This document shows positions 25,366-41,086 of a DNA stretch of 55,081 nt, piece after piece (position 1 is the first letter of the stretch; the number at the start of each line of letters is the position of its first letter). Where the stretch lies: the NCBI GenBank assembly GCA_018659585.1, contig JABJMC010000005.1, positions 1 through 55,081 on the forward strand. Reading direction: 5' to 3'. The notes under the pieces were generated by a model. It was not told the origin of the DNA and did not search any database. It was given only the letters and a program-made list of their open reading frames with translations. A program made the translations under genes and the position numbers. The stretch is from Candidatus Peregrinibacteria bacterium (GTDB lineage: Bacteria; Patescibacteriota; Gracilibacteria; UBA1369; UBA12473).

Positions 25366-26640
25366 ATGGAACAAGCCCTAAAGATTTTACAAGTCCCCAT
25401 CAAATCCCTTAACCCCGCCCCCTACAACCCCCGTACGTGGAGTCAAAAGGCCATCGATGACCTCACGGAGAGTATCAAAAGGTTCGGCTTTGTAGACGCA
25501 ATCCTTGTGAATAAAGCCTCTGGCCGCGAAAACGTTGTCATTGGTGGGCATTTTAGATTGAGTGTAGCGAAAAAACTAGGCTACAAAGAAGTCCCCGTCG
25601 TCTACTTAGACATTCCGGACAAAGCTAAGGAACGAGAGCTAAATCTTCGCCTCAACCGCAACACTGGAGATTGGGATCTAGAACTTCTTAAACAATTCGA
25701 CACTAATATTCTTTTAGATGTTGGTTTTGATGACTCTGATCTCGAATCCATTTGGAACGATGTTCTTGAAACCGAAGATGACGACTTCGATCTCGAAAAA
25801 GAAGCCACTGCCCTTAAAGAACCATTCGTGCAGCCGGGAGATCTATATCAACTTGGGCCACACAAGCTCTTATGCGGTGACGCCACCAACCCCGAAGATG
25901 TGGAGAGGCTTATGGATGGCCAGAAAGTGCCAATGATATACATGGATCCTCCGTTTAACATCGGTCTCAGTTATAACCACGGCATTGGCACTAAGAGCAA
26001 GTATGGCGGAACCGCAGTCAAAGACAATAAATCTACGCCAAAATACCGAGAATTTTTAAGAAAGTCCCTGCAAAACGCCTTGGATGCATCAACTGAGGAC
26101 ACTCATTGCTTCTGTTGGTCAGACGAGCGTTATATCGGCCTTATCCAAAGCCTGTACGAAGAGCTAGGCGTAACTAACCAACGTGTCTGCCTTTGGCTTA
26201 AGAACAACGCCATGGCCACGCCTCAATACGCGTTCAACAAGGTCTATGAACCTTGCATTTACGGCGTTCGCGGTAATCCTTATCTTTCCGAACAACACAC
26301 CAAATTTAACGAAGTTTTCAACAAGGAAATTGGCACGGGCAACCGTCTGCAGGATGACATTCTAGATTTATTTAACATCTGGCTGGTTAAGAGGCTCCCC
26401 TTCAACGAATACCAACATCCCACGCAAAAACCACCCACTCTCCACGAAAAAGCTCTTCGTCGCTGCACCAAAATCGGTGACATTGTTTTGGATTTGTTCG
26501 GCGGTAGCGGTTCCACGCTGATCGCCTGCGAACAACTTAAACGCACCTGCTACATGATGGAAATTTGCCCAACTTTTAGTTCTTTAATCATTACTCGTTA
26601 TGAACAACTCACCGGCCATAAAGCCAAAAAACTCAATTAA
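25366..26640 (+). CDS. ParB-like domain / DNA methyltransferase fusion
   Basis: 424 residues from ATG 25366. Residues about 1-110 are a ParB/Srx-type domain (PAPYNPRTWSQKAIDDL, VVIGGHFRLSVAKKLGY, LNLRLNRNTGDWD). Residues about 150-420 are a beta-class DNA amino-methyltransferase: motif IV MDPPFNIG, then the C-terminal SAM-binding motif LDLFGGSGSTLIACEQ. This pairing is typical of phage-encoded modification enzymes found beside terminase genes. It should methylate adenine N6 or cytosine N4 in an unknown sequence. The end overlaps the next methyltransferase gene by 41 bp in another frame. Confidence 0.92.
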   Translation: MEQALKILQVPIKSLNPAPYNPRTWSQKAIDDLTESIKRFGFVDAILVNKASGRENVVIGGHFRLSVAKKLGYKEVPVVYLDIPDKAKERELNLRLNRNTGDWDLELLKQFDTNILLDVGFDDSDLESIWNDVLETEDDDFDLEKEATALKEPFVQPGDLYQLGPHKLLCGDATNPEDVERLMDGQKVPMIYMDPPFNIGLSYNHGIGTKSKYGGTAVKDNKSTPKYREFLRKSLQNALDASTEDTHCFCWSDERYIGLIQSLYEELGVTNQRVCLWLKNNAMATPQYAFNKVYEPCIYGVRGNPYLSEQHTKFNEVFNKEIGTGNRLQDDILDLFNIWLVKRLPFNEYQHPTQKPPTLHEKALRRCTKIGDIVLDLFGGSGSTLIACEQLKRTCYMMEICPTFSSLIITRYEQLTGHKAKKLN

Positions 26641-27358
26641 AACAGGTCAGATCGTCCAGCTTGGAGATCACTTTCTTGCCTGTGGAGACTCAACTGATCC
26701 TGAATTGGTTTCTAATCTGTTAGAAGCGCATGAAGTCAGCTTAATTTTAACCGATCCGCCATACGGAGTGGATTATGTAAAAGCCAAAGAATTCATCGGC
26801 TCTACCGGCCACAAAGAAATCTTAAACGATGAACCTCAAAGTGATTCGAAATACCGGGATTTTACAACAGATTGGTTGGCGCTAGTTAAGCCAAGCATGA
26901 CCGCCAAGAACTCTCTTTATATCTTTAATTCCGACCGGATGATTTTCGCTTTACGCGAAGGGATGATCGCAGCCGGCTTTCGTTTATCTCAGTTACTCAT
27001 CTGGGCAAAGACTAGCTCGGTAATCGGAAGGCTGGACTATCTCCCCCAACACGAGCTCATTGCTTATGGTTGGACTGGCGCTCATGAATTCAAAAAAGGG
27101 AAAGATCATAGCGTTATCGTTTATCCGCGGACAAAAAAGAATAACCTTCATCCCACAATGAAGCCTGTGGGGTTACTTCGACGGTTAATCCTAAACAGCT
27201 CCAATATTGGAGATTTTGTTTATGACCCTTTTGGCGGCAGCGGCTCAACTCTAATCGCTTGTGAGCAGACTAAGCGCCGCTGCTTGATGATCGAGAAAGA
27301 TGAAAAGTACTGCCAAGTAATAATCGATCGTTTTAATAAACTAACCACATCCTTATGA
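26600..27358 (+). CDS. DNA N6-adenine/N4-cytosine methyltransferase
   Basis: 252 residues. Motif IV TDPPYGVDY (near 50) and the C-terminal SAM motif YDPFGGSGSTLIACEQ (near 208-223) define a beta-class amino-methyltransferase without an added domain. It resembles the catalytic half of the preceding gene (GGSGSTLIACEQ is shared), so the pair probably arose by duplication. Translation starts inside the preceding gene (41-bp overlap), and the stop overlaps the next ATG (ATGA). No partner restriction enzyme is adjacent, so it probably protects the element's own DNA. Confidence 0.92.
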   Translation: MNNSPAIKPKNSIKTGQIVQLGDHFLACGDSTDPELVSNLLEAHEVSLILTDPPYGVDYVKAKEFIGSTGHKEILNDEPQSDSKYRDFTTDWLALVKPSMTAKNSLYIFNSDRMIFALREGMIAAGFRLSQLLIWAKTSSVIGRLDYLPQHELIAYGWTGAHEFKKGKDHSVIVYPRTKKNNLHPTMKPVGLLRRLILNSSNIGDFVYDPFGGSGSTLIACEQTKRRCLMIEKDEKYCQVIIDRFNKLTTSL

Positions 27359-27774
27359 AAGATCCTCAGAAAACCATCACCACCAGGCAAAACAGTCAAA
27401 AAGCACTTTTAATTGAGCAACTTAATAAAGCTCCCATTGTTCAAGTTGCCTGTGAAAAGGTTGGAGTTGGACGCTCCACCTACTACCGATGGCGAAAAGC
27501 GAGTAAAAAATTCCGTAACGCCACCGACAAAGCCCTGCTCAATGGCAAGTTACTCATCAACGACATGGCAGAATCGCAACTTATAAGTGGCATTAGAGAA
27601 CAAAACATGACCGCCATTATCTTTTGGCTCAAACATCATCACGCGGATTACACCACGCGCGTGGAACTTTCTGGTGAAGTTAAGACAGCCGGTGAAAAAC
27701 TCACTCCAGAACAAGAAAAAGTTATTCGACAAGCCCTAAGTTTAGCCGCATTAACCCAACCTACTAATGAATAA
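27355..27774 (+). CDS. Terminase small subunit (HTH, phBC6A51-like)
   Basis: 139 residues. A helix-turn-helix near residues 27-45 (VQVACEKVGVGRSTYYRW) is followed by helices for oligomerisation (NDMAESQLISGIREQNMTAI, FWLKHHHADYTTRVE), as in small terminase subunits that recognise the packaging site. It starts at the ATGA overlap with the methyltransferase gene and overlaps the large-subunit gene by 8 bp, which supports the assignment. Confidence 0.8.
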   Translation: MKDPQKTITTRQNSQKALLIEQLNKAPIVQVACEKVGVGRSTYYRWRKASKKFRNATDKALLNGKLLINDMAESQLISGIREQNMTAIIFWLKHHHADYTTRVELSGEVKTAGEKLTPEQEKVIRQALSLAALTQPTNE

Positions 27775-29266
27775 TCTTCCTGAAATTATCAAAAATCAGA
27801 AACTAAGACGAAATTTGACTCAAGAAAGTCACTTCTACTTTTTCCACATCTATTTTGGTCACTACGTAAGGTACGAAACAGCAGATTTCCAGAAAGAAAT
27901 TTTTAAACTAACTGAAGACGAAAATATTCAAACCCTTGGAGTGGTTGCTTTTCGAGGCTCCGCAAAGTCTACAATTGTTAATATGTCCTACCCTATTTGG
28001 TCCATTCTTGGAAAACAGCAAAAAAAGTTCGTTCTTATCCTCGGTCAAACACAGCAACAAGCCAGACAACATCTTAAAAACCTCAAGGATGAGCTTGAAA
28101 GCAATAAATTACTCAAAGATGACTTAGGTCCCTTTGAGGAGCAAGAAGACGAATGGCATGCTTATTCACTTGTATTGCCTAAATATGGAGCCCGAATCAC
28201 CGCCGCCTCCAGTGAACAAAGTATCCGAGGAATCCGCCACCAAGCGTATCGCCCGGATTTAATTATCGGAGATGACTTGGAAGATCTTGCTTCGGTTAAA
28301 ACGCGTGAAAGCCGAGATAAAACTTTTCAATGGCTCACAAGTGAAGTAATCCCCGCTGGTGACAGAAAAACTCGACTTATTCTAATTGGCAACCTTCTTC
28401 ACGAAGACTCCTTACTGATGCGTATAAAGCACTTAATTAAGGATGGGGAGCTTCATGGTGTTTTCCGCGAATATCCCCTTCTAAATGAAAAAGGGCATTG
28501 TATTTGGCCCGGCAAGTATCCTGATAAAAAAGCTATCGAAGCTGATAAAAAGCGAGTAGGAAGCATTAAGGCTTGGCATCGTGAATATTTACTTAACATC
28601 GTTGATGATAATGAGAAAGTAATTCATCGAGAATGGATTAAGTATTATTCACAAACTCCTAAAAAAAACAAATCCTCTAATTACCGTTTTACAGCTTTTG
28701 CAATCGATCCGGCTATTTCTGAAAGGGATGGGGCTGACTATACGGCCATGGTAGCGGCGCATGTGTATGGCTATGGGGACGATGTGGTTATTTACATTTT
28801 ACCCAACCCTGTTTGTAAGCGGCTTACTTTTCTTAAAACAGTTTCGCAGGCACTCCTTTTATCATCACAGCTAACAACTGAAGGCCAAAGAAAACCACAA
28901 ATAATTGTAGAAGATGTTGCCTATCAAAGATCGCTAATTGAACAATTAAAAGCCAAACGAGTGAATGTAAAAGCGTTTAAACCAGGAGGACAAGATAAGC
29001 GAGCCAGGCTTTCTGCTGCTAGTTATTTTGTTCAAAATGGCCAAGTCTTATTCCCTAAAAAGGGTGCAGAAAAATTAACTCAACAACTTGTGAATTTTGG
29101 TATGGAAAGACACGATGACTTAGCGGACGCCTTTGCGATGCTAATATTGGAAATAACCAGACAAAAAGGATCTGGGGTAAGATTACCCACTTGTGATAGG
29201 ACTCCAGGGAAATTCAATAATGGTCCTTGGAGAGGACTTGGGAATATTTGGGGGAAGCAGTTTTAA
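27767..29266 (+). CDS. Terminase large subunit
   Basis: 499 residues. The ATPase domain shows a Walker A variant FRGSAKST (62-69) and a Walker B strand PDLIIGDDLED (near 162-172). The C-terminal RNase H-like nuclease has FAIDPAISERDGADYTAMV (near 310), IIVEDVAYQ and RHDDLADAFAML (near 447), giving the acidic metal ligands. It should cut and translocate DNA into a procapsid. No portal, protease, capsid or tail gene follows: the next genes are on the other strand. The element may be packaged by a helper phage or be a remnant. Confidence 0.92.
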   Translation: MNNLPEIIKNQKLRRNLTQESHFYFFHIYFGHYVRYETADFQKEIFKLTEDENIQTLGVVAFRGSAKSTIVNMSYPIWSILGKQQKKFVLILGQTQQQARQHLKNLKDELESNKLLKDDLGPFEEQEDEWHAYSLVLPKYGARITAASSEQSIRGIRHQAYRPDLIIGDDLEDLASVKTRESRDKTFQWLTSEVIPAGDRKTRLILIGNLLHEDSLLMRIKHLIKDGELHGVFREYPLLNEKGHCIWPGKYPDKKAIEADKKRVGSIKAWHREYLLNIVDDNEKVIHREWIKYYSQTPKKNKSSNYRFTAFAIDPAISERDGADYTAMVAAHVYGYGDDVVIYILPNPVCKRLTFLKTVSQALLLSSQLTTEGQRKPQIIVEDVAYQRSLIEQLKAKRVNVKAFKPGGQDKRARLSAASYFVQNGQVLFPKKGAEKLTQQLVNFGMERHDDLADAFAMLILEITRQKGSGVRLPTCDRTPGKFNNGPWRGLGNIWGKQF

Positions 29267-29805: not shown

Positions 29806-29834
29806 AATTTCTTAGATTAGAAAATAACAAAAGT

Positions 29835-29959
29835 GGGCACCTAGGTCGCCCAACACATTTACTCCGCGAGGAATAGCCGAATTGGCTAGGTGCCCGCCTC
29901 CACCCAATTCGGGGGAAAACGAGCAATATCCTCGCAGAAATCTAATTGTGTTAAGCGAC
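29835..29959 (-). ncRNA. Candidate structured small RNA with pseudoknot
   Basis: Read on the minus strand, three nested helices form. The outer one is 13 bp: GTCGCTTAACACA (29959-29947) with TGTGTTGGGCGAC (29857-29845), including two U-G pairs. The middle one is 7 bp: GCGAGGA (29935-29929) with TCCTCGC (29872-29866). The inner one is 9 bp: CCGAATTGG (29912-29904) with CCAATTCGG (29885-29877). The 18-nt apical loop ends in GGGCACCTAG (29895-29886), fully complementary to CTAGGTGCCC (29844-29835) immediately 3' of the outer helix, a 10-bp pseudoknot. On the plus strand the two U-G pairs would become C-A mismatches, which fixes the sense. TATAAT at 29971-29966 predicts a start at 29959, and a T-rich run follows. 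It matches no RNA family I can recall. Confidence 0.75.
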
Positions 29960-29965
29960 GTCTGG

Positions 29966-29993
29966 ATTATAGCTTAAACAACCAGAAAGTGAA
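29966..29993 (-). promoter_or_regulatory. Promoter of the structured RNA
   Basis: On the minus strand, TTCACT (29993-29988), a 16-bp spacer and a perfect TATAAT (29971-29966). Transcription would begin at about 29959, the first paired base of the outer helix. The -35 box is weak. Confidence 0.6.
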
Positions 29994-30042: not shown

Positions 30043-30792
30043 TTACAACTCTACTTTTGCCATCGCCTTCCGATACGTACAAAAGTCACAATCATCACCT
30101 GACTCAGGTATCTGATCGGACATTAAACATTTATGAGCACCCAAAATCGCCTGCTCTACCCATTCATCATTTCCTTCGTGAGCAATAAGAGTAATATCAA
30201 ATTCAAGTTTTGCATCAAACGCTTCTTTATCCCTATCTCCGTTACAATAAACAAAATAGCCCGTATTAGAGACTTTGTAGCCATTTTGACGTAACAACCA
30301 CTGGTACACCTCCATTTGACGTTTATAGCCATCTTGCCAGTCTTGATCTAATACAGTTATCTCATCATTTTTACTCGTAGCTTTGTAATCTACAACGATG
30401 TACTCGTTCTTAGAATTTATCCAAAGATCATCAATTGCGCCGGTAACCGTCATCCCTGTAGGTTCGTGCACATATTGAACTCCTTTAAAATTTTCGCGCC
30501 ACTCGTCTAAGTCATCGTGGGCAACTGGCCGTGCATCCACACCGTATTTTTCAATAAGTGGATGTTGAGTGTCTGCGACTCTATGGATATCAAATTCCTT
30601 TTTTAAAAGAGCATCAACAGCTGAATTTAAATTAAAAGGGAATCCCGGTGGCTGCTTAATCCCGAGTTTATTATCGATATAAAAACACTTAGGGCATCTC
30701 AAAAATAAATCTATTTTGGAACGTGAGAGCTTCCACCGTTTACCTCCGAAATTCCAGTCTACTTGGCGTGGTATTTTGTAGTATTGGGACAT
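30043..30792 (-). CDS. Cas4/RecB-like PD-(D/E)XK nuclease, Fe-S cluster type
   Basis: 249 residues. The nuclease core is GAIDDLWIN followed by YIVVDYKAT (Asp and the D-x-K pair) and QMEVYQWLL (QxxxY motif), as in the RecB/Cas4 family. Four cysteines in pairs, FLRCPKCFY near residue 34 and DDCDFCTYR near the C-terminus, are placed like the 4Fe-4S ligands of Cas4 and AddB. Such enzymes are DNA exonucleases. No CRISPR array or cas1 is in the window, so the name Cas4 is structural only. It is the third gene of the operon behind the PLD-SNF2 helicase and methyltransferase (35-bp gap) and probably serves the same system. Confidence 0.85.
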   Translation of the reverse strand: MSQYYKIPRQVDWNFGGKRWKLSRSKIDLFLRCPKCFYIDNKLGIKQPPGFPFNLNSAVDALLKKEFDIHRVADTQHPLIEKYGVDARPVAHDDLDEWRENFKGVQYVHEPTGMTVTGAIDDLWINSKNEYIVVDYKATSKNDEITVLDQDWQDGYKRQMEVYQWLLRQNGYKVSNTGYFVYCNGDRDKEAFDAKLEFDITLIAHEGNDEWVEQAILGAHKCLMSDQIPESGDDCDFCTYRKAMAKVEL

Positions 30793-30827
30793 AAATTATT
30801 TGTTTAATTAATCGTGATAAGAGGCCA

Positions 30828-33800
30828 TCACTGTAAATTACTTTCTATTATTTGAATTTCTTCTGGCGTTAAATGATAAAGCTTATAAACTAAATTATCA
30901 ATTTCTCTCTCGAATTCTAAAGTATCAATTTTAGGATCCTTTTTCTTACTATCAAGAATACAATCAACAAGTGATTCTATTTGCGAAACTAATTCTCGGC
31001 AAACAGGAATAACTTCAGGAACTATTATCGGATTTAACGCTTGCACACTTAAAATCAAATCACCAGTTCCTGTCCTTGGAGAATTTTGCAACAAATAACA
31101 ACCAACTTTACTATTTAAAATAGCTGTTAAATATTTAACTTTCTCTCCCGTCATTATACAAGTACTGTCTTGACATAAAAACCCCTCTTCATCAAACAAA
31201 AAACGAATAATTGAACCTATTCTCTTCCACACTATTTTTTCTTTTTCAAACGATTCAATATATTCACTACCAGGATTATTATCTAGCTCTAACCAATGGT
31301 GTTGCCCATCATAATCTGCTTTTGTTTGATTTTTACCTGCTCGGGAATATTTGCACTGTCCACGATTTTTTAGTTTATTTTCATATTTCTTTAAATGTTT
31401 ATAGATAGCAGGATATTCATAATGCAAAGTTTCATAACTCCCAAATTTCGTGATAATAATATACTGATCTTCCCATCCGTGACCATAGCGCTTAATATCA
31501 CGGCCACGCAGAATAGGCCTAATAATTTTAGCACTTTTAAAATCTTCCTTAATTAATTCATTACGTTTTTTTCTATCTATAATAAAAGCTTCATTAAAGC
31601 CAGTTTTTATCCCAAAATTTATCTTCACATTCCATTCCTTAAGGGGCTTACCAAGTTTCTCAATTTTACTTTTAAGTAACAATTCCTTTTCACTCCCTAT
31701 AAACCATATATTTGAATTAATATTTTTAAGATGTACTCTATTTTCCAAAAAATAATTTAAAAGATCCTTTCCTGGCTCATAATCATTCTTGAAATGGCAC
31801 GCTTCTAAAGCATTTAAATTCGTACAATTTTCTAAAATTAAAATATTTGTATCTACGGTCGCATTTTCAAACATTTTAAAGCCACCAAAATTTAATAATT
31901 TTAAAGGATTTTTAGCAACAAAAAATCTTCGTAATACCTCTCCGTATCCACAATGCATCCATTTATTACTTGATATATAAGTAATTAAACCACTGTTTGG
32001 CTTAGATATTTTTACTCCCAATTCATAAAACAAACAGTAAAGATCTCCGCGAGCAGATGCTACTTGATAAATTTCTTTATATGAGCTCTTATGATCAGAA
32101 ATCTTTTCTAAACTAACATATGGAGGATTAGCGATAACCACATCAAACCCCCCTTTTCCTTGGAACACTTCCGCAAAATGTAATTTCCACAAGAAGAAAG
32201 GCTTATCATTTCTTAACTTCATTCCCTCTAATTTAGGCAATTCCTTTTCCTTGCCCTGCTCTTTTAACGTTTCCTCAATCAATTCCCATTCAAACATGTC
32301 AATTTTTTTCTTTATTTCACTTTTACGACTTTTTTGAGCAACATTAAAAAACTCTTTATGAAGACGATTAAGTTCTTGAGCTTTTTCCATTGATTTACCA
32401 ACTTTTTCAAATAAAGAACCATTTTGTTCTATTTGCACTTTATTTAATCCAGCTTCTTCCCTAGAAAGCGCTTTCATTTCTTTTTCAACTTCTGTTTTTT
32501 TATTCTTTGTAAGCTTGCCATCTGAATGAAGTTTAAAATACTCCTGTTGAAGCAAACTTTTCCTACTATTAATTTTTGCAAGGCGCTCCTTTTTTAATTT
32601 CTCCGTATCTAAAATCAACGATTCATCAAAAAGCTTTATCCCCTCATATTCCTCTAAAAGACTATTTCCTTGCATAATTTTATAATCCAAATTAGGAAGT
32701 GGTTTAATGTCTGTCATTTCATCTTCGTCCACCACCAAAGAAAGCCAAAGTCTAAGCTTAGCAATTTCAACCGCGCCCGAATCAACATCCACACCATAAA
32801 GTGAATTTTCGATAGCGTGACGTTTAAAATAATAAGGAGTTCTCTTTACTTTAAGTTTTTCAAAAATTCTAGTAGCATTTAAAGAACCTCTTGCACGCAC
32901 AATTTCATTCATCATTCCTACAAGGAATGCCCCCGAACCAATGGCAGGGTCGCAAACAGTTATATTGGCTAATTTTTGATCAATAAGTTCAGCGTGTTCA
33001 TGAATTAATTTTGGTAGTTTATATTTCCCATCATCTTTAATAACTCCTTGAATCTTCGCCATATCGTGCTCAACGGCAAAATCCCCAAGATGAATAAAAA
33101 TTTCAAGATCTTCTTTCGGTACTTTTTCCTCAAGTTCAGTCGTTAAATGATTAATTAAACTTTCTTGACACATATAATGAACAATTTCACGAGGAGTGTA
33201 AAAAGCTCCCTTAGATTTTCTATCTTTAATTTCAAGCAAATTCTCAAAAACTTTCCCCAACATTTCCGGATCAATAGCTACTTCTTTTTCCAATGGTTCA
33301 TCTTCTTTTATTGTAAAGTTATAGCGATCAAAAAAATCCAAAATCCCGGAACCTAGATCGCCTTCTTTTGTCTTATAATCATTGGAAAAAAGATCATTAG
33401 GAATAATGATATCAGTATTCACCCAATCATAACTTTGCAAAGGCTCAAAAAGGCCTCCATTTAAAAATGGGATTTTGCAATTAAATTTATCATAATAAGC
33501 ATTGTCCCGATCTGTTGCTAATGCTTCGTAAAAAAATGGTTCTAAAACTTCATTAAAAAAATTATCGTATTCGCAATATTTTTTATCGAAAAGTGCTCTC
33601 AAAAAATTCTTAGATCCCTCTCCCCACTCTTTTTCCTTATCCACCCCCAACCAACCTTTTCGTTGCAAAAAATATAAAAAAACTATTTGCCCAAAAAGCT
33701 TTTTGCCAAAATCTGCTGTATTGATTCCTTTAATTTCAAAATCCTTTTTAATCTTACTATCTTTCTCAATAATCTTCTCAAGTTCTTCTGTGAAGCTCAA

Positions 33801-34418
33801 AAAAAGATCTTTATATTTATTAAAAAAATCCTTTGTCACTATTTCTATACTAAAAGACTTTTCAATCTCTTTTAAAGTAGGGTTATGTTTATCCTCCTCA
33901 AGAATTGGCAATAATTGCTTTTGGGCGGTATGGCTATTCTCATTTTTACCAACAATAAAAGAAAATCTCTTCGATGGCGTTAGTTCTTCCTTAACTTTTA
34001 CTTTGTCCTTCCCTGCTCTTTCAAGGTTATACTCCATTTTAACCAATGAAAAGCGCCAATCATCGTTATTTGGTGAAACAAACGCAACCAATCCAGCATC
34101 TTTTTCCGCTCTAGTTTTTAAATGATGGGCCGCAAAATTCCTCTGAAGTGTACGCGCCCTTTCAAGTGTTGTTTCTTTTTCAAGATAAACAATTAAAATA
34201 TCTATTTTTTCTCCTTCTGGAGCTATATAGGTTCCAATTCTTTCATAATACTGAACCCCTTCATGAAAAGCATGCTTAACATATTGCTTAGGCCATACTT
34301 TAGCTTTGCTTTCGTCTATTTCATTTAAAAGCTCTTTCACAAATCTAATAAATAAATTCTTGTCAAAAGACCGATTAAAGGTTTCTCGAATTAAATTTTT
34401 GGCTTGTTTAGAATCCAC
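30828..34418 (-). CDS. Eco57I-like type IIG restriction-modification methyltransferase
   Basis: 1196 residues. The SAM-binding motif CDPAIGSGAFLVGMM is near 491 and the catalytic motif IV ANPPYVSL near 766, which define a gamma-class N6-adenine methyltransferase of the Eco57I family. The N-terminal about 180 residues (EGEKIDILIVYLEKETTLER, DWRFSLVKMEYN) form a separate domain often seen in such large enzymes. A charged insert (about 600-720) separates the motifs. The C-terminal part (RPILRGRDIKRYG near 970; SKVGCYLLQ) matches TaqI-type target recognition. The start is GTG 34418, directly after the stop of the upstream helicase gene, so translation is probably coupled. The product probably marks self DNA for the adjacent helicase-nuclease. 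Confidence 0.9.
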   Translation of the reverse strand: MDSKQAKNLIRETFNRSFDKNLFIRFVKELLNEIDESKAKVWPKQYVKHAFHEGVQYYERIGTYIAPEGEKIDILIVYLEKETTLERARTLQRNFAAHHLKTRAEKDAGLVAFVSPNNDDWRFSLVKMEYNLERAGKDKVKVKEELTPSKRFSFIVGKNENSHTAQKQLLPILEEDKHNPTLKEIEKSFSIEIVTKDFFNKYKDLFLSFTEELEKIIEKDSKIKKDFEIKGINTADFGKKLFGQIVFLYFLQRKGWLGVDKEKEWGEGSKNFLRALFDKKYCEYDNFFNEVLEPFFYEALATDRDNAYYDKFNCKIPFLNGGLFEPLQSYDWVNTDIIIPNDLFSNDYKTKEGDLGSGILDFFDRYNFTIKEDEPLEKEVAIDPEMLGKVFENLLEIKDRKSKGAFYTPREIVHYMCQESLINHLTTELEEKVPKEDLEIFIHLGDFAVEHDMAKIQGVIKDDGKYKLPKLIHEHAELIDQKLANITVCDPAIGSGAFLVGMMNEIVRARGSLNATRIFEKLKVKRTPYYFKRHAIENSLYGVDVDSGAVEIAKLRLWLSLVVDEDEMTDIKPLPNLDYKIMQGNSLLEEYEGIKLFDESLILDTEKLKKERLAKINSRKSLLQQEYFKLHSDGKLTKNKKTEVEKEMKALSREEAGLNKVQIEQNGSLFEKVGKSMEKAQELNRLHKEFFNVAQKSRKSEIKKKIDMFEWELIEETLKEQGKEKELPKLEGMKLRNDKPFFLWKLHFAEVFQGKGGFDVVIANPPYVSLEKISDHKSSYKEIYQVASARGDLYCLFYELGVKISKPNSGLITYISSNKWMHCGYGEVLRRFFVAKNPLKLLNFGGFKMFENATVDTNILILENCTNLNALEACHFKNDYEPGKDLLNYFLENRVHLKNINSNIWFIGSEKELLLKSKIEKLGKPLKEWNVKINFGIKTGFNEAFIIDRKKRNELIKEDFKSAKIIRPILRGRDIKRYGHGWEDQYIIITKFGSYETLHYEYPAIYKHLKKYENKLKNRGQCKYSRAGKNQTKADYDGQHHWLELDNNPGSEYIESFEKEKIVWKRIGSIIRFLFDEEGFLCQDSTCIMTGEKVKYLTAILNSKVGCYLLQNSPRTGTGDLILSVQALNPIIVPEVIPVCRELVSQIESLVDCILDSKKKDPKIDTLEFEREIDNLVYKLYHLTPEEIQIIESNLQ

Positions 34419-37400
34419 TTATAGTTTTGTCACTAAATATTCAGAAAGAATAACTTCTCTGGGTCCACTTGTTGATGCGGCACTTTCACCGACAGTTTCC
34501 AAGAAAAATTCTTCCGGAATATTAAGTTTTAATAATCCTAATATTTTCATTGGGTTATCTTCCTTACTCAAATTTTGAGAAAGTGTTTTAAATGTTTGTT
34601 TAGGTAACGCACTTTCTTCCACTAATCGCATAACTTCTTTTAAATACTCATCATCATCCTCTGTAAATCCTTGAAAGTTCTTAATAGCCTTTAATGTCTT
34701 TAAAACACTAACTCTCGCATCACGCCCCTTGGAAACCCCTTTCTCCTCTCCTACATCAGCCGTAGATAAAATAAAAGCCTCCTTATTTCTTTCAAGCATC
34801 TCATAGAAATCTTTACCCACACTTTGATGCTTCTCATCTTCTTTCGCTTTAAAAAAGCTAACTGCTTCAAAAAAATCAAGCTCCTCTGCTTGATCACAAG
34901 CAGAGGAAATAAAAAACTTCTCTAACTTACCTTTTCTGACATAACTTAAAACAGAATTTGATTTTCTGATTTTAACATTTTTTGAAGATCTGGCCTTCTT
35001 TGGGAGTCTCTTTATTTTTTCGTATAAATCCAAATCATTCTCTCGGATGGCCTTTATTTCATTTAAATATTCAAGCTCACTCTGCTGATCTTCGTCTTCT
35101 CCAGTAATTGTATTTTTTGAATTTAACTGCTTAAACAAATCATGTGATTTCACCTCCTCTCCTTCTGTAAGAAGCCTTGCATCATTCCCCAACATTTCAA
35201 TAAAAGCTCCAATTTTCAATTCAGCAGCTTCTTTTAGCTTAATTTCATCATTAGATTCATCTGTCGGGAAAAAATTATAAGTAAAAATCTCATCAAATTT
35301 AGTATCTACTCTATTAATACGACCAACTCGTTGAATCATTCGTGTTGGGTTCCACGGGATATCATAATTAATCACCACATTTGATCTGTGCAAATTCACA
35401 CCCTCAGATAATGTTTCTGTAGCAATAAGAATTTGGTAATCATCCTTTGGATGCCTAACATTCGCATCAAAATTTTCAATTACTTTTTCTCTAACAGCAC
35501 TACCAGATGAACCAGTATATACAATGACTGACTTACCAGCGTCCTTCAATTTTGCCTCAAGGTATTCTGCTGTCTCTTTTGATTCGGTAAAAATAATTAA
35601 TCGCTTATCTCTAAGCTTTGGAGAAGACTCCAATCTCTCTTTTAAAGATGTAAGTTTTGGATCTCTTGTTACTTGATCCCACATTGCTTTCACCTCTTTT
35701 AAAACAGCTAAATCATTATGCAAATCCACCTCAAATTCTGGGCTAAATTCTTTAGACTCATGCCTCTCTGCCTTATCATCATCAATTAATTTTTGAATTG
35801 CTACATCATCTTCATTTTCTAAAAACTCAAAAATCTTATTTGAATGCTTTTTACTCATATAAACATTCCCTTCTTCGAACTCATTAATAAAAGACTCATA
35901 CGACCAAATAAACCTATCAATACTTTGCTTAAATGCATAAAAGCTACTTTCCAATCTTTTTATTAAAAGGATTTTCATAAACTTCCCCATATTTCTTTGA
36001 CCTAACTCCTCTGAATGGCTGACTCCTCCCTTGTGGTAAAGCATTGGAGTATAACGAGTATACTTAAATTCGTTATTAAAGAGTTGCAAAGTTTTTGTGA
36101 AGACCTCATTTTCATATTCATTAAACTTATAATAAAAAGGTTTAGGGTTTTCCACTTTAGGAAATTTTAATTTTTGTGCCGCCAAATCATCTTTATAGTA
36201 TTTACTGATCTCAGTACGCGTTCTCCTAATCATCAAATACTTAAGCACCTTCTCTCTTATTTCTTTAGAATTCATTTTAACGGACTCCAAATATTCATCT
36301 CTGTCCTCCTTTCTATCTAATTTTCTAATTTTCCCATCAAGCCGGCTAAAGAAGCTCTCTATATCAGGCATATTGGGGATTGTGCTTTTTTTACCTTTCT
36401 GGAAAAGTTTAATCTGAGAGAGAATATCTTTTGGACTGTTGTTTAAAGGAGTTGCCGTTACAAGTATTACTCTTTTTCCACGACAAATTCGTGCTAACTT
36501 TTCGTAACTTGCCGTTGTTTCCGTTCTAAAACGATGAGCTTCATCAATAAATACGTTCTTATATTTACTAAGATCTGTTTTAAGCAGTTGGTCCAATTTT
36601 CCTATAGATTCAAATCGAGACTGCCTAATTTGAAAATCTTCGAAAACATTTGGCCAGGAACCTGGATTACTTCGATCCAACAGGGCCGGCGGAGCCAGCA
36701 CTAAATTACGGCCATCTATATGTTGTGCAAGCATAGAAGCCATATAAGTTTTCCCAAGACCAACAACATCAGATAAGAAAACCCCTCCATATTCTTCTAA
36801 AATCCTTTTAGCATTTGAAACAGCATCACTTTGATATTCTAAAGTTTTAAATCCTTGGGGTTTATAAAGGTTAACCTCTTGCCCTACTGCAAGCTCTCTT
36901 TTGAAATACTCATACAAAAATTTCAGGTACAGTTCGTAAGGAGTAAATTCTGCATACGGAGATTTTTTCTCAATTGTATTAACGTAAATTTCTGAAACAT
37001 CAACTGCATTTTCCCAAAGGGAATTAAATTGATTTAAAGCAAAATCATAATCAGATGGATTCTTAAGCTCAACATTAAATTCCAGATTATCCATTAGTCC
37101 CGATTGAGAAAAATTACTAGAACCGGTAATGACACGCCCCTTGTCTCTATCTCCTTCCTTAAAAGTCATCACATACAATTTTGCGTGGATTTTATCAGTA
37201 GGATAAGCTTTTATCTCTAATTTCCCATTACGAATCCATTCAATGAATTTACGCACGCCTTCCTCAATTTTTGACGTATCTTCCGACACTTCAAATTCCT
37301 TCAAAATTTGCTCTGGCATTTGTTTTTTTGTCTCAGCGTGTGTGTTTAAAGGTAATTCTTGCTGTTTTTTAGCCTTTTCTAAAAGATCATAAGTTCTTTT

Positions 37401-37595
37401 ATCAGTTTCTAATCCAATCAAAATCCGAACCTTATCTGTATCCTCAAGAGACGGATAAAGCTGATAAAAACCACTAATAAAAAAATAGCCAACTAAGGCA
37501 TCAAAATAATCACAATCCTTTATAAGGACTCTAAAACGCTCTAGCAAACTCTTGTCTTTCTCATTTGTGATGAAAGTTAAATCAGAATCACTCAT
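34419..37595 (-). CDS. PLD nuclease-SNF2 helicase fusion
   Basis: 1058 residues. Residues about 1-200 are a phospholipase-D-like domain with one HKD-type site (IHAKLYVMTF near 146, then GSSNFSQSG). Residues about 235-820 are an SF2/SNF2 helicase: VGLGKTYMAS (Walker A near 278), DEAHRF (near 350), TATPLNNSP, TLSEGVNL (near 730) and IQRVGRINR (motif VI near 755). The C-terminal about 250 residues are unassigned. It is the first gene of an operon with an Eco57I-type methyltransferase (no gap) and a Cas4-like nuclease. A TATAAT at 37628-37623 precedes the ATG by 27 bases. Helicase-PLD proteins of this type occur in restriction-like defence systems; DNA cleavage is inferred. Confidence 0.9.
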   Translation of the reverse strand: MSDSDLTFITNEKDKSLLERFRVLIKDCDYFDALVGYFFISGFYQLYPSLEDTDKVRILIGLETDKRTYDLLEKAKKQQELPLNTHAETKKQMPEQILKEFEVSEDTSKIEEGVRKFIEWIRNGKLEIKAYPTDKIHAKLYVMTFKEGDRDKGRVITGSSNFSQSGLMDNLEFNVELKNPSDYDFALNQFNSLWENAVDVSEIYVNTIEKKSPYAEFTPYELYLKFLYEYFKRELAVGQEVNLYKPQGFKTLEYQSDAVSNAKRILEEYGGVFLSDVVGLGKTYMASMLAQHIDGRNLVLAPPALLDRSNPGSWPNVFEDFQIRQSRFESIGKLDQLLKTDLSKYKNVFIDEAHRFRTETTASYEKLARICRGKRVILVTATPLNNSPKDILSQIKLFQKGKKSTIPNMPDIESFFSRLDGKIRKLDRKEDRDEYLESVKMNSKEIREKVLKYLMIRRTRTEISKYYKDDLAAQKLKFPKVENPKPFYYKFNEYENEVFTKTLQLFNNEFKYTRYTPMLYHKGGVSHSEELGQRNMGKFMKILLIKRLESSFYAFKQSIDRFIWSYESFINEFEEGNVYMSKKHSNKIFEFLENEDDVAIQKLIDDDKAERHESKEFSPEFEVDLHNDLAVLKEVKAMWDQVTRDPKLTSLKERLESSPKLRDKRLIIFTESKETAEYLEAKLKDAGKSVIVYTGSSGSAVREKVIENFDANVRHPKDDYQILIATETLSEGVNLHRSNVVINYDIPWNPTRMIQRVGRINRVDTKFDEIFTYNFFPTDESNDEIKLKEAAELKIGAFIEMLGNDARLLTEGEEVKSHDLFKQLNSKNTITGEDEDQQSELEYLNEIKAIRENDLDLYEKIKRLPKKARSSKNVKIRKSNSVLSYVRKGKLEKFFISSACDQAEELDFFEAVSFFKAKEDEKHQSVGKDFYEMLERNKEAFILSTADVGEEKGVSKGRDARVSVLKTLKAIKNFQGFTEDDDEYLKEVMRLVEESALPKQTFKTLSQNLSKEDNPMKILGLLKLNIPEEFFLETVGESAASTSGPREVILSEYLVTKL

Positions 37596-37694: not shown

Positions 37695-37723
37695 ATGTGG
37701 GTAACAAAACCTTTAACCCACAT
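37695..37723. repeat. Inverted repeat before the serine recombinase gene
   Basis: ATGTGGGT (37695-37702) and ACCCACAT (37716-37723) form a perfect 8-bp dyad with a 13-bp centre, ending six bases before ATG 37730. The half-site ATGTGGGT also occurs at the ends of the two repeats at 39788 and 40894. It could be a regulatory or recombination site. Confidence 0.4.
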
Positions 37724-37729
37724 CTTGTG

Positions 37730-38998
37730 ATGGATACCGAAAATATCCCTATTAAGTATTGCCTGTATGCGCGTAAGTCCTCTGAGTCAGACGAACGGCA
37801 AGCCATGAGCATCGATTCTCAAATCAAAGAAATGCTCGATATTGCTGAACGAGACAAACTTAACGTCACCGAAATCCGCGAAGAAAGCAAAAGTGCCAAG
37901 GCGACTGGAGCGCGCCAGGAATTCAACAAACTCCTCAAGGATATTGATGAGGGAAAGTTTAATGCAATTCTAACCTGGGCTCCCGACCGTTTAAGTCGCA
38001 ATGCTGGAGACTTAGGTTCACTGGTTGATCGGATGGACGGAGGCAAGCTTCTTCAAATTCGAACTCATGGCCAAAATTTCACAAACACCCCCAACGAAAA
38101 ATTCCTTCTAATGATCCTGTGCAGCCAAGCCAAGCTAGAGAATGATAATAGAGGTAAAAACGTTAAACGTGGCTTACGCGCCAAATGTGAACGAGGCAAG
38201 CGCCCTGGGATGCCACCACTAGGTTACAAGCTCTACCGAGATCCCGAAGATTACTCCAAAGGGAGCACCATTCTTCTTGACCCGGAACGCGCGCCATTTA
38301 TTAAAAAAATGTTTAATTACGTAACCGAACACGGATTCAGTGGCCGCCAAACAAATGATTTTTTAACCGGAGAAGGATTCAGGACTAGAAGCGGTAAAAA
38401 CCTTTCTCTCAGCATGACATACCGTATTTATAAAGACACCTTTTACTTTGGTGAATTTGAATACCCGGTTGGGAGTGGGGTTGTTTATCAAGGAGTTCAC
38501 GAACCGATTATTACAAAAGAACAATGGGAAAAAGCTAATAGCATGCTTAAAACTTTTGAAAAAAAGAAATGGGGAAGCAACAACTTTTATTTCAGCCGCT
38601 TATTCAAATGCGGCGCTTGCCAATCCGGAGTCTGCGGCGAAACTCACACAAACCGCCACGGAAAAGAATACATCTACTACAAATGTACTAAATACGGTGG
38701 GAATAAACGTTGCGACGAAAAATACATTCGCGAAGACAAACTAGTTGAATCAATTGCCAGCCTAATCGACCAATTTAAAAACAAAGACTTACAAATCCAT
38801 AAAAAAGTAACCCGAGAGGTAGAAAAATTTAACGAGATGCAACGAATGACAATCGGCGAGAACGCCAAACAAATCAGTCCCACCGAATACATAGGTTATA
38901 TTCTAAAAAATGGGACTAGCCTAGAAAAAAGACAATTCCTGAAATGTCTGGAGGGACAATTGTGGTTGAGGAGTGGGGAGGTTGGTCTCAACTCTTGA
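37730..38998 (+). CDS. Serine recombinase (resolvase/invertase with recombinase and zinc-ribbon domains)
   Basis: 422 residues from ATG 37730; a GTG at 37697 is in frame but lies inside an inverted repeat. The resolvase domain begins KYCLYARKSSES, with the catalytic Ser near 17, and carries TWAPDRLSRNAGD. The recombinase domain follows (MPPLGYKLYRDP, FSGRQTNDFLTGEGF), and then a zinc ribbon (FKCGACQSGVCGE and YYKCTKYGG, RCDEKYI). The length is that of CPR-type recombinases, shorter than phage large serine integrases. It probably catalyses integration and excision of the element. Its last 11 bases overlap the convergent gene. Confidence 0.92.
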   Translation: MDTENIPIKYCLYARKSSESDERQAMSIDSQIKEMLDIAERDKLNVTEIREESKSAKATGARQEFNKLLKDIDEGKFNAILTWAPDRLSRNAGDLGSLVDRMDGGKLLQIRTHGQNFTNTPNEKFLLMILCSQAKLENDNRGKNVKRGLRAKCERGKRPGMPPLGYKLYRDPEDYSKGSTILLDPERAPFIKKMFNYVTEHGFSGRQTNDFLTGEGFRTRSGKNLSLSMTYRIYKDTFYFGEFEYPVGSGVVYQGVHEPIITKEQWEKANSMLKTFEKKKWGSNNFYFSRLFKCGACQSGVCGETHTNRHGKEYIYYKCTKYGGNKRCDEKYIREDKLVESIASLIDQFKNKDLQIHKKVTREVEKFNEMQRMTIGENAKQISPTEYIGYILKNGTSLEKRQFLKCLEGQLWLRSGEVGLNS

Positions 38999-41011: not shown

Positions 41012-41086
41012 TGGCTGGGGCGCAGGGATTCGAACCCCGGAATGCATGGACCAAAACCATGTGCCTTACCACTTGGCGACGCCCCA
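41012..41086 (-). tRNA. tRNA-Gln (anticodon UUG)
   Basis: A complete cloverleaf reads on the minus strand. Acceptor arms TGGGGCG and CGCCCCA, D arm GCC/GGC, anticodon stem CATGG/CCATG with loop TTTTGGT (anticodon TTG), T loop TTCGAAT, discriminator G (expected for tRNA-Gln) and an encoded CCA end at 41014-41012. TAGAAT at 41109-41104 is a plausible -10 box. Copy 2 of the repeat downstream supplies the terminator. Confidence 0.95.

Follow-up and report, generated by a model that had tools for sequence, protein, structure and literature searches.

The 55,081 nucleotides of contig JABJMC010000005.1 from a Candidatus Peregrinibacteria bacterium (the window) carry on their minus strand a compact RNA element, in which a nested hairpin is combined with a pseudoknot between its apical loop and the bases directly 3′ of its outer helix. 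Comparison with about 35 relatives, detected in the candidate phyla radiation (CPR)/Patescibacteria with BLAST searches, covariance models and a structural descriptor, suggests that the gene at 29805-29275 has this element as its 5′ leader, and that the element belongs to a new family of such pseudoknotted leaders among CPR bacteria, a reading to which we give a probability of roughly 0.58. Knowledge of RNA regulation in CPR bacteria is sparse, and large serine recombinases, the main partners of the family, are widely used genome-engineering enzymes whose control is poorly understood. If the reading is true, a leader linking integrases, restriction systems and surface proteins would bear on how mobile genes are kept silent and released in CPR hosts, and the control proposed below is directly testable with simple reporters.

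A conserved pseudoknotted fold

The original prediction, made from the letters of the window, described four helices of 13, 7, 9 and 10 bp together with a TATAAT promoter, and a check of the sequence found all of them in place. Read on the minus strand from 29959, these are P1 (13 bp, including two U-G pairs), P2 (7 bp), H3 (9 bp) and the pseudoknot (10 bp); they abut without spacers, beginning at the predicted +1, and the promoter at 29993-29966 matches the consensus in 10 of 12 positions (Table 1). The minimum free energy (MFE) of the minus strand is -62.7 kcal/mol, compared with -37.5 ± 4.1 for shuffled sequences (z -6.2; 0/200 shuffles as good), and the plus strand is much weaker (z -3.5). 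The MFE structure differs from the predicted fold, as a three-way junction with P3/P4 hairpins takes the place of H3 and the pseudoknot. Energy alone could therefore not settle the topology, because the best nested fold omits the pseudoknot and replaces H3.

Relatives of the element offer a further source of evidence. The first clear one (L002 in genome G184) was detected by BLAST among related genomes; it is 74% identical, and P1, P2 and the pseudoknot all show compensatory changes. With further BLAST searches and a single pattern scan across GTDB genomes, six diverse copies were obtained, two of them from Candidatus Gracilibacteria and Peregrinibacteria, i.e. CPR/Patescibacteria. The covariance-model search of CPR genomes, proposed earlier as a check, recovered relatives both at class level and phylum-wide: model R1 detected the RNA in 14 of 353 class genomes, and model R2 in 15 of 341, plus another 7 in a phylum-wide sample of 380 genomes, all of these being prevalence figures from samples of mostly metagenome-assembled genomes (MAGs), with rough model E-values. 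One genome (G014) has three copies (L200, L204 and L205). For three restriction-type members, the P1 coordinates were set by hand after covariance-model alignment (A6). Exact-pattern scans of IMG/VR returned chance matches or none, and phage and plasmid records gave no match. One contig labelled as an Omnitrophota MAG (L139) carries the RNA along with S-layer genes resembling those of Gracilibacteria/Peregrinibacteria, which may reflect misbinning or cross-phylum transfer.

In a 12-row alignment, 94.7% of 548 cells are paired and 28 pairs show changes in both partners (none of 500 shuffles did as well), while sliding the partner columns by one lowers pairing to 40-46%; this alignment was hand-fitted, with some unmatched inserted bases omitted, so that its counts lean toward the structure. 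Within it the pseudoknot pairs in all 120 cells, and 6 of its 10 pairs have changed on both sides. Two checks are independent of the hand fitting. RNAalifold, run on six unedited sequences, picked the pseudoknot helix unaided, and the raw pseudoknot arms of 29 diverse members are paired in 358 of 359 cells (329 Watson-Crick and 29 G-U, with one mismatch and no A-C); since these arms were chosen for complementarity, the informative part is the asymmetry of G-U over A-C together with the sequence diversity. Indeed, the 29 G-U against 0 A-C pairs identify the minus strand as the RNA, in agreement with the original prediction, and the nested helices hold 45 G-U and 7 A-C cells on that strand. Helices broken without compensation had been named as the outcome that would speak against the fold; the pseudoknot helix is instead preserved in every relative via compensatory changes, and the predicted topology of nested hairpin plus loop-to-3′-tail pseudoknot recurs among the relatives.

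The position of the element is equally regular. The gap between the end of a TATAAT-like hexamer and the first paired base is exactly 6 nt in 28 of 35 members, which upholds the proposal of an own promoter with its start at that base, and 5-6 of 6 hexamer positions match in 63% of members, compared with 6% at random places (for L275, whose upstream sequence is tgatatacttgaat, the promoter table used the wrong P1 anchor). On the 3′ side, a U-run comes immediately behind the GC-rich helix, as looked for in an attenuator: at least three T occur within the 6 nt that follow the pseudoknot in 33 of 35 relatives. A same-strand open reading frame starts at once in 23 of 25 loci (29% at intergenic control positions), with a median gap of 28 nt between pseudoknot and ATG; in the window the gap is 29 nt. 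The fixed promoter spacing and the same-strand gene directly after the element argue for a 5′ leader rather than a free-standing RNA.

Among the roles suggested earlier, leader of the OB-fold membrane gene is thus the supported one, as relatives almost always precede a same-strand gene. A guide or antitoxin of the defence operon at 30-37 kb was rejected, because the RNA is directed away from that operon and the neighbours vary among relatives. A link to defence is thus unsupported for the operon in the window, and a looser one exists elsewhere, five relatives preceding restriction-modification (R-M) methyltransferase genes.

Table 1. Features of the leader and its gene in the window
Feature	Position	Strand	Basis
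Structured leader RNA, whole element, ~125 bases	29835..29959	-	helices and fold score here; relatives
P1 5′ strand GTCGCTTAACACA	29947..29959	-	read from sequence; covaries
P1 3′ strand TGTGTTGGGCGAC	29845..29857	-	read from sequence; covaries
P2 5′ strand GCGAGGA	29929..29935	-	read from sequence; covaries
P2 3′ strand TCCTCGC	29866..29872	-	read from sequence; covaries
H3 5′ strand CCGAATTGG	29904..29912	-	core NAAYT covaries with partner core
H3 3′ strand CCAATTCGG	29877..29885	-	covaries with H3 5′ strand
Pseudoknot 5′ arm GGGCACCTAG, in apical loop	29886..29895	-	covariation and RNAalifold
Pseudoknot 3′ arm CTAGGTGCCC, abuts P1 on 3′ side	29835..29844	-	covariation and RNAalifold
P3a 5′ strand GCTCGTTTTC, competing fold	29915..29924	-	MFE and covariation
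P3a 3′ strand GGAGGCGGGC, competing fold	29892..29901	-	MFE and covariation; GGGC common to pseudoknot
U-rich tract ACTTTTGTTATTTT, 3′ of pseudoknot	29821..29834	-	relatives alike
-10 hexamer TATAAT	29966..29971	-	ends 6 nt before first paired base
-35-like TTCACT	29993-29988	-	16 nt upstream of TATAAT
Gene led by the RNA: zinc ribbon, transmembrane, tRNA_anti-like (OB-fold), 176 aa	29275..29805	-	domain scan

Recombinases and other genes behind the leader

The main partner of the family, the large serine recombinase, was absent from the original prediction. It is the downstream gene at L205 and L207-L212, with the domains Resolvase, Recombinase and Zn_ribbon_recom (PF00239/PF07508), and the RNA lies directly 5′ of a recombinase gene at 16 loci, in the wider phylum and once in the window's own genome, where a second copy (L295) occurs on another contig. 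In the reverse direction, recombinase genes were collected from 192 genomes of the phylum (115 with one), and 66 upstream regions were scored with a descriptor of P1 and pseudoknot, using far-upstream and shuffled controls. The RNA was detected in 8 of the 66: seven regions score 28.2-36.4, above all far-upstream controls (maximum 26.3) and shuffles (maximum 20.5), and the eighth (L246, 24.4) lies above the shuffles and inside the range of the controls. In the compact form found before recombinases, the pseudoknot extends to 14-20 bp and may stop only 10-11 nt short of the ATG. On the recombinase tree, leader presence needs 6 changes compared with 12.6 under shuffled labels (0/500), and the leader can thus be said to travel with recombinase lineages.

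At another recombinase locus (L221:14979-17549), the recombinase frame continues through a stretch that looks tRNA-like, judged from the translated peptide, into a complete, proB-like amino-acid kinase domain. This in-frame fusion lies at a likely integration site, in the manner of integrative elements.

The remaining genes are mixed. The gene type of the window (zinc ribbon, membrane segment and tRNA_anti-like domain) is also found behind the RNA in L170/L193 and L171/L196. R-M systems are represented by type III methyltransferases with a res helicase next (L185, L187 and L188), a Type ISP/IIG enzyme (L186) and HsdM-HsdS (L192), and further leaders precede S-layer or nuclease secreted proteins (L194, L195 and L220), an fn3 protein (L223) and, in some class members, membrane proteins without family assignment. 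Outside the class, L216 has a helix-turn-helix (HTH) protein downstream at a distance. In G014, the leaders of L200 and L204 are near-identical, upstream promoter included, and stand before unrelated genes (a nuclease lipoprotein and a membrane protein), as if promoter and leader had been copied as a cassette; such cassettes before unrelated genes suggest a regulon-like input.

Two gene groups flank the leader in the window. A defence-like operon (30043-37595, minus strand, and 37697-38998, plus strand) comprises a PD-(D/E)XK nuclease, a type IIG R-M enzyme (1196 aa) and a PLD-helicase (1058 aa) and adjoins a large serine recombinase, and a tRNA-Gln (41012-41086) may mark the integration end. 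On the other side, a DNA methylase, an HTH small-terminase-like protein and a terminase-like protein stand in a row as a prophage packaging module (26600-29266, plus strand) that ends in convergent orientation to the OB-fold gene; in L002, too, a terminase-small-like reading frame lies on the same side of the OB gene.

Competing folds, proposed control and alternatives

Judged by conservation, both sets of pairings, the pseudoknotted and the nested one, are real. Class-level members also keep the competing set, which consists of a P3a/P3b hairpin, a P4 of 3-4 bp and a loop-loop pairing, NAAYT/ARTTN, that is at the same time the core of H3. Both sets draw on the GGGC and RG of the pseudoknot arm, which also pair in P3a/P4, and a single G-to-A change in the shared arm of L179 is compensated in both partners; these shared bases and the covariation of the competing pairings are seen in class-level members and are less clearly visible in recombinase members. 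Under an assumed pseudoknot cost of 9 kcal/mol, the energy difference between the folds ranges from -0.7 to +8.7 kcal/mol among non-recombinase members, which would place them near balance, and from -11.2 to +0.1 kcal/mol among recombinase members, which would let these favour the pseudoknot. Other pairings are possible as well. The 3′ arm in the window can also pair with the P1 3′ strand, forming a local hairpin that resembles a terminator, and in two type III R-M leaders (L179:1478-1670 and L176:1501-1670) the sequence GGCACGGC after the U-run could pair with CGTGCC in the region of the pseudoknot 5′ arm, a possible third alternative in such leaders.

In the control we propose, transcription would start at the first base of P1, and the leader would fold as P1-P2 plus an apical domain whose loop base-pairs with the stretch immediately following P1, acting in cis, presumably as an attenuator. 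When OFF, the GC-rich pseudoknot helix ahead of the U-run would lower expression through polymerase release at the U-run and/or a block of the ribosome site, the latter where the start codon lies close to the pseudoknot; when ON, the pseudoknot 5′ arm would be held in the competing P3/P4 fold and the gene would be read. Recombinase leaders would lean to the OFF state, and leaders of restriction and surface genes would sit near balance, where a signal or binding factor could switch them. Sequence comparison supplies the start at P1, the competing pairings (in the class-level group), the GC helix with its U-run and the gene that follows at once; from these the mechanism is pieced together. The leader is probably an on/off control common to mobile and defence genes. 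A more speculative extension, which we hold only tentatively, is a shared signal-responsive control on CPR mobile elements that served integrases first and was then copied, as a promoter-leader cassette, onto R-M and cell-surface genes, with the pseudoknot as terminator or ribosome block and the kissing-loop fold as the ON state.

Several points weigh against this account. Its support comes from comparing sequences and the mechanism is inferred, a terminator formed by a pseudoknot would be unusual, and the U-run has a length of only 4-6 and is weak in some recombinase members. The folds could also partly coexist (upper P3, P4 and the kissing loop, with the base of P3a open), in which case the element would be rigid and not a switch. 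Furthermore, the downstream genes point to no single ligand, and the distance between L206 and its gene exceeds 200 nt.

A constitutive 5′ untranslated region (UTR) element, that is, an mRNA cap or standby structure serving message stability or ribosome placement with no switching, would agree with the strong preference for one fold in recombinase leaders and with spacer-free helices that begin at +1, but the competing pairings with common bases kept by the class-level group, and the near-equal fold energies, make it unlikely. A free-standing, trans-acting small RNA, for which pseudoknot and U-run would be the terminator and the downstream gene would be expressed separately or by read-through, is less probable again: it would account for the promoter and the U-run that nearly every member has of its own, the 4-6 U after a GC-rich helix and the two nearly identical copies in one genome, yet it requires neither the immediate same-strand gene nor the tracking of recombinase lineages. 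That the large serine recombinase has the RNA as its partner, much as IS110 has its bridge RNA, is suggested by the place of the RNA directly 5′ of the gene and by its inheritance with recombinase lineages; it is nevertheless very improbable, as the loops covary with one another and apparently not with target DNA, related RNAs also precede non-recombinase genes, and serine integrases, to our knowledge, bind DNA through protein alone. A DNA-level element mistaken for RNA (attachment site, integron attC, operator or single-strand hairpin) has hardly any credibility, for although the window P1 reads GCTTAAC...GTTGGGC, resembling attC R boxes, and several loci are integrative elements, the G-U excess over A-C in pseudoknot and nested helices, the loss of the R-box GTT in relatives and the fixed promoter spacing all oppose it. 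Integron attC in particular (RYYYAAC/GTTRRRY) was rejected, since only the window copy fits and relatives keep TTGG without GTT.

Comparison with known RNA systems

The absence of a known Rfam family, claimed by the original prediction, was confirmed for the window and for the loci of eight relatives. In the window, Rfam 15 has no family at gathering score for the element, the low-threshold matches being chance-like, and the sole match at that score anywhere in the window is the tRNA at 41 kb; at the eight loci, no match to the leader was found except a plant miRNA score of 28 bits (gathering 70) overlapping the L235 leader. The best sub-threshold score, 22.7 bits (gathering 45), belongs to ctRNA_pGA1 (RF00236), which likewise has two hairpins and then a U-run; the GC helix and the U-run account for this score, and a plasmid replication gene was not seen nearby. 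A tRNA or tmRNA identity of the element was rejected, as was a retron, no reverse transcriptase being present among the downstream or neighbouring genes scanned.

Type III toxin-antitoxin systems (ToxI) show the same order of promoter, pseudoknotted RNA, U-run and gene. Here, however, the RNA is present in a single copy per locus without tandem repeats, and the downstream genes, scanned with Pfam and PADLOC, include no ToxN-like endoribonuclease, so that this identity was rejected. The bridge RNA of IS110/IS621 is likewise noncoding and lies immediately upstream of the recombinase gene of a mobile element, but the recombinase there is of the DEDD type; in the present family it is a serine recombinase, guide-like loops were not seen, and non-recombinase genes are led as well.

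There is also a likeness in layout to pseudoknotted riboswitches and attenuators (such as purine kissing loops, preQ1, SAM-II and fluoride), which share the 5′ UTR location, the compact fold, the junction with interacting loops and the pseudoknot by the expression platform. The family described here has the conserved, structured 5′ mRNA leader of a riboswitch. Unlike riboswitches, it lacks an Rfam match and its downstream genes (recombinases, R-M, OB-fold, SLH, nuclease and others) are tied neither to one ligand nor to a common metabolic function; it accompanies mobile and defence genes, and its closing helix is followed directly on the 3′ side by the pseudoknot arm and then by the U-run. No earlier description was found in Rfam 15 or the open-access literature searched (subscription papers and bioRxiv lay outside this scope). 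While leader RNAs are known as a kind, this RNA class, its layout and its gene partners appear to be new.
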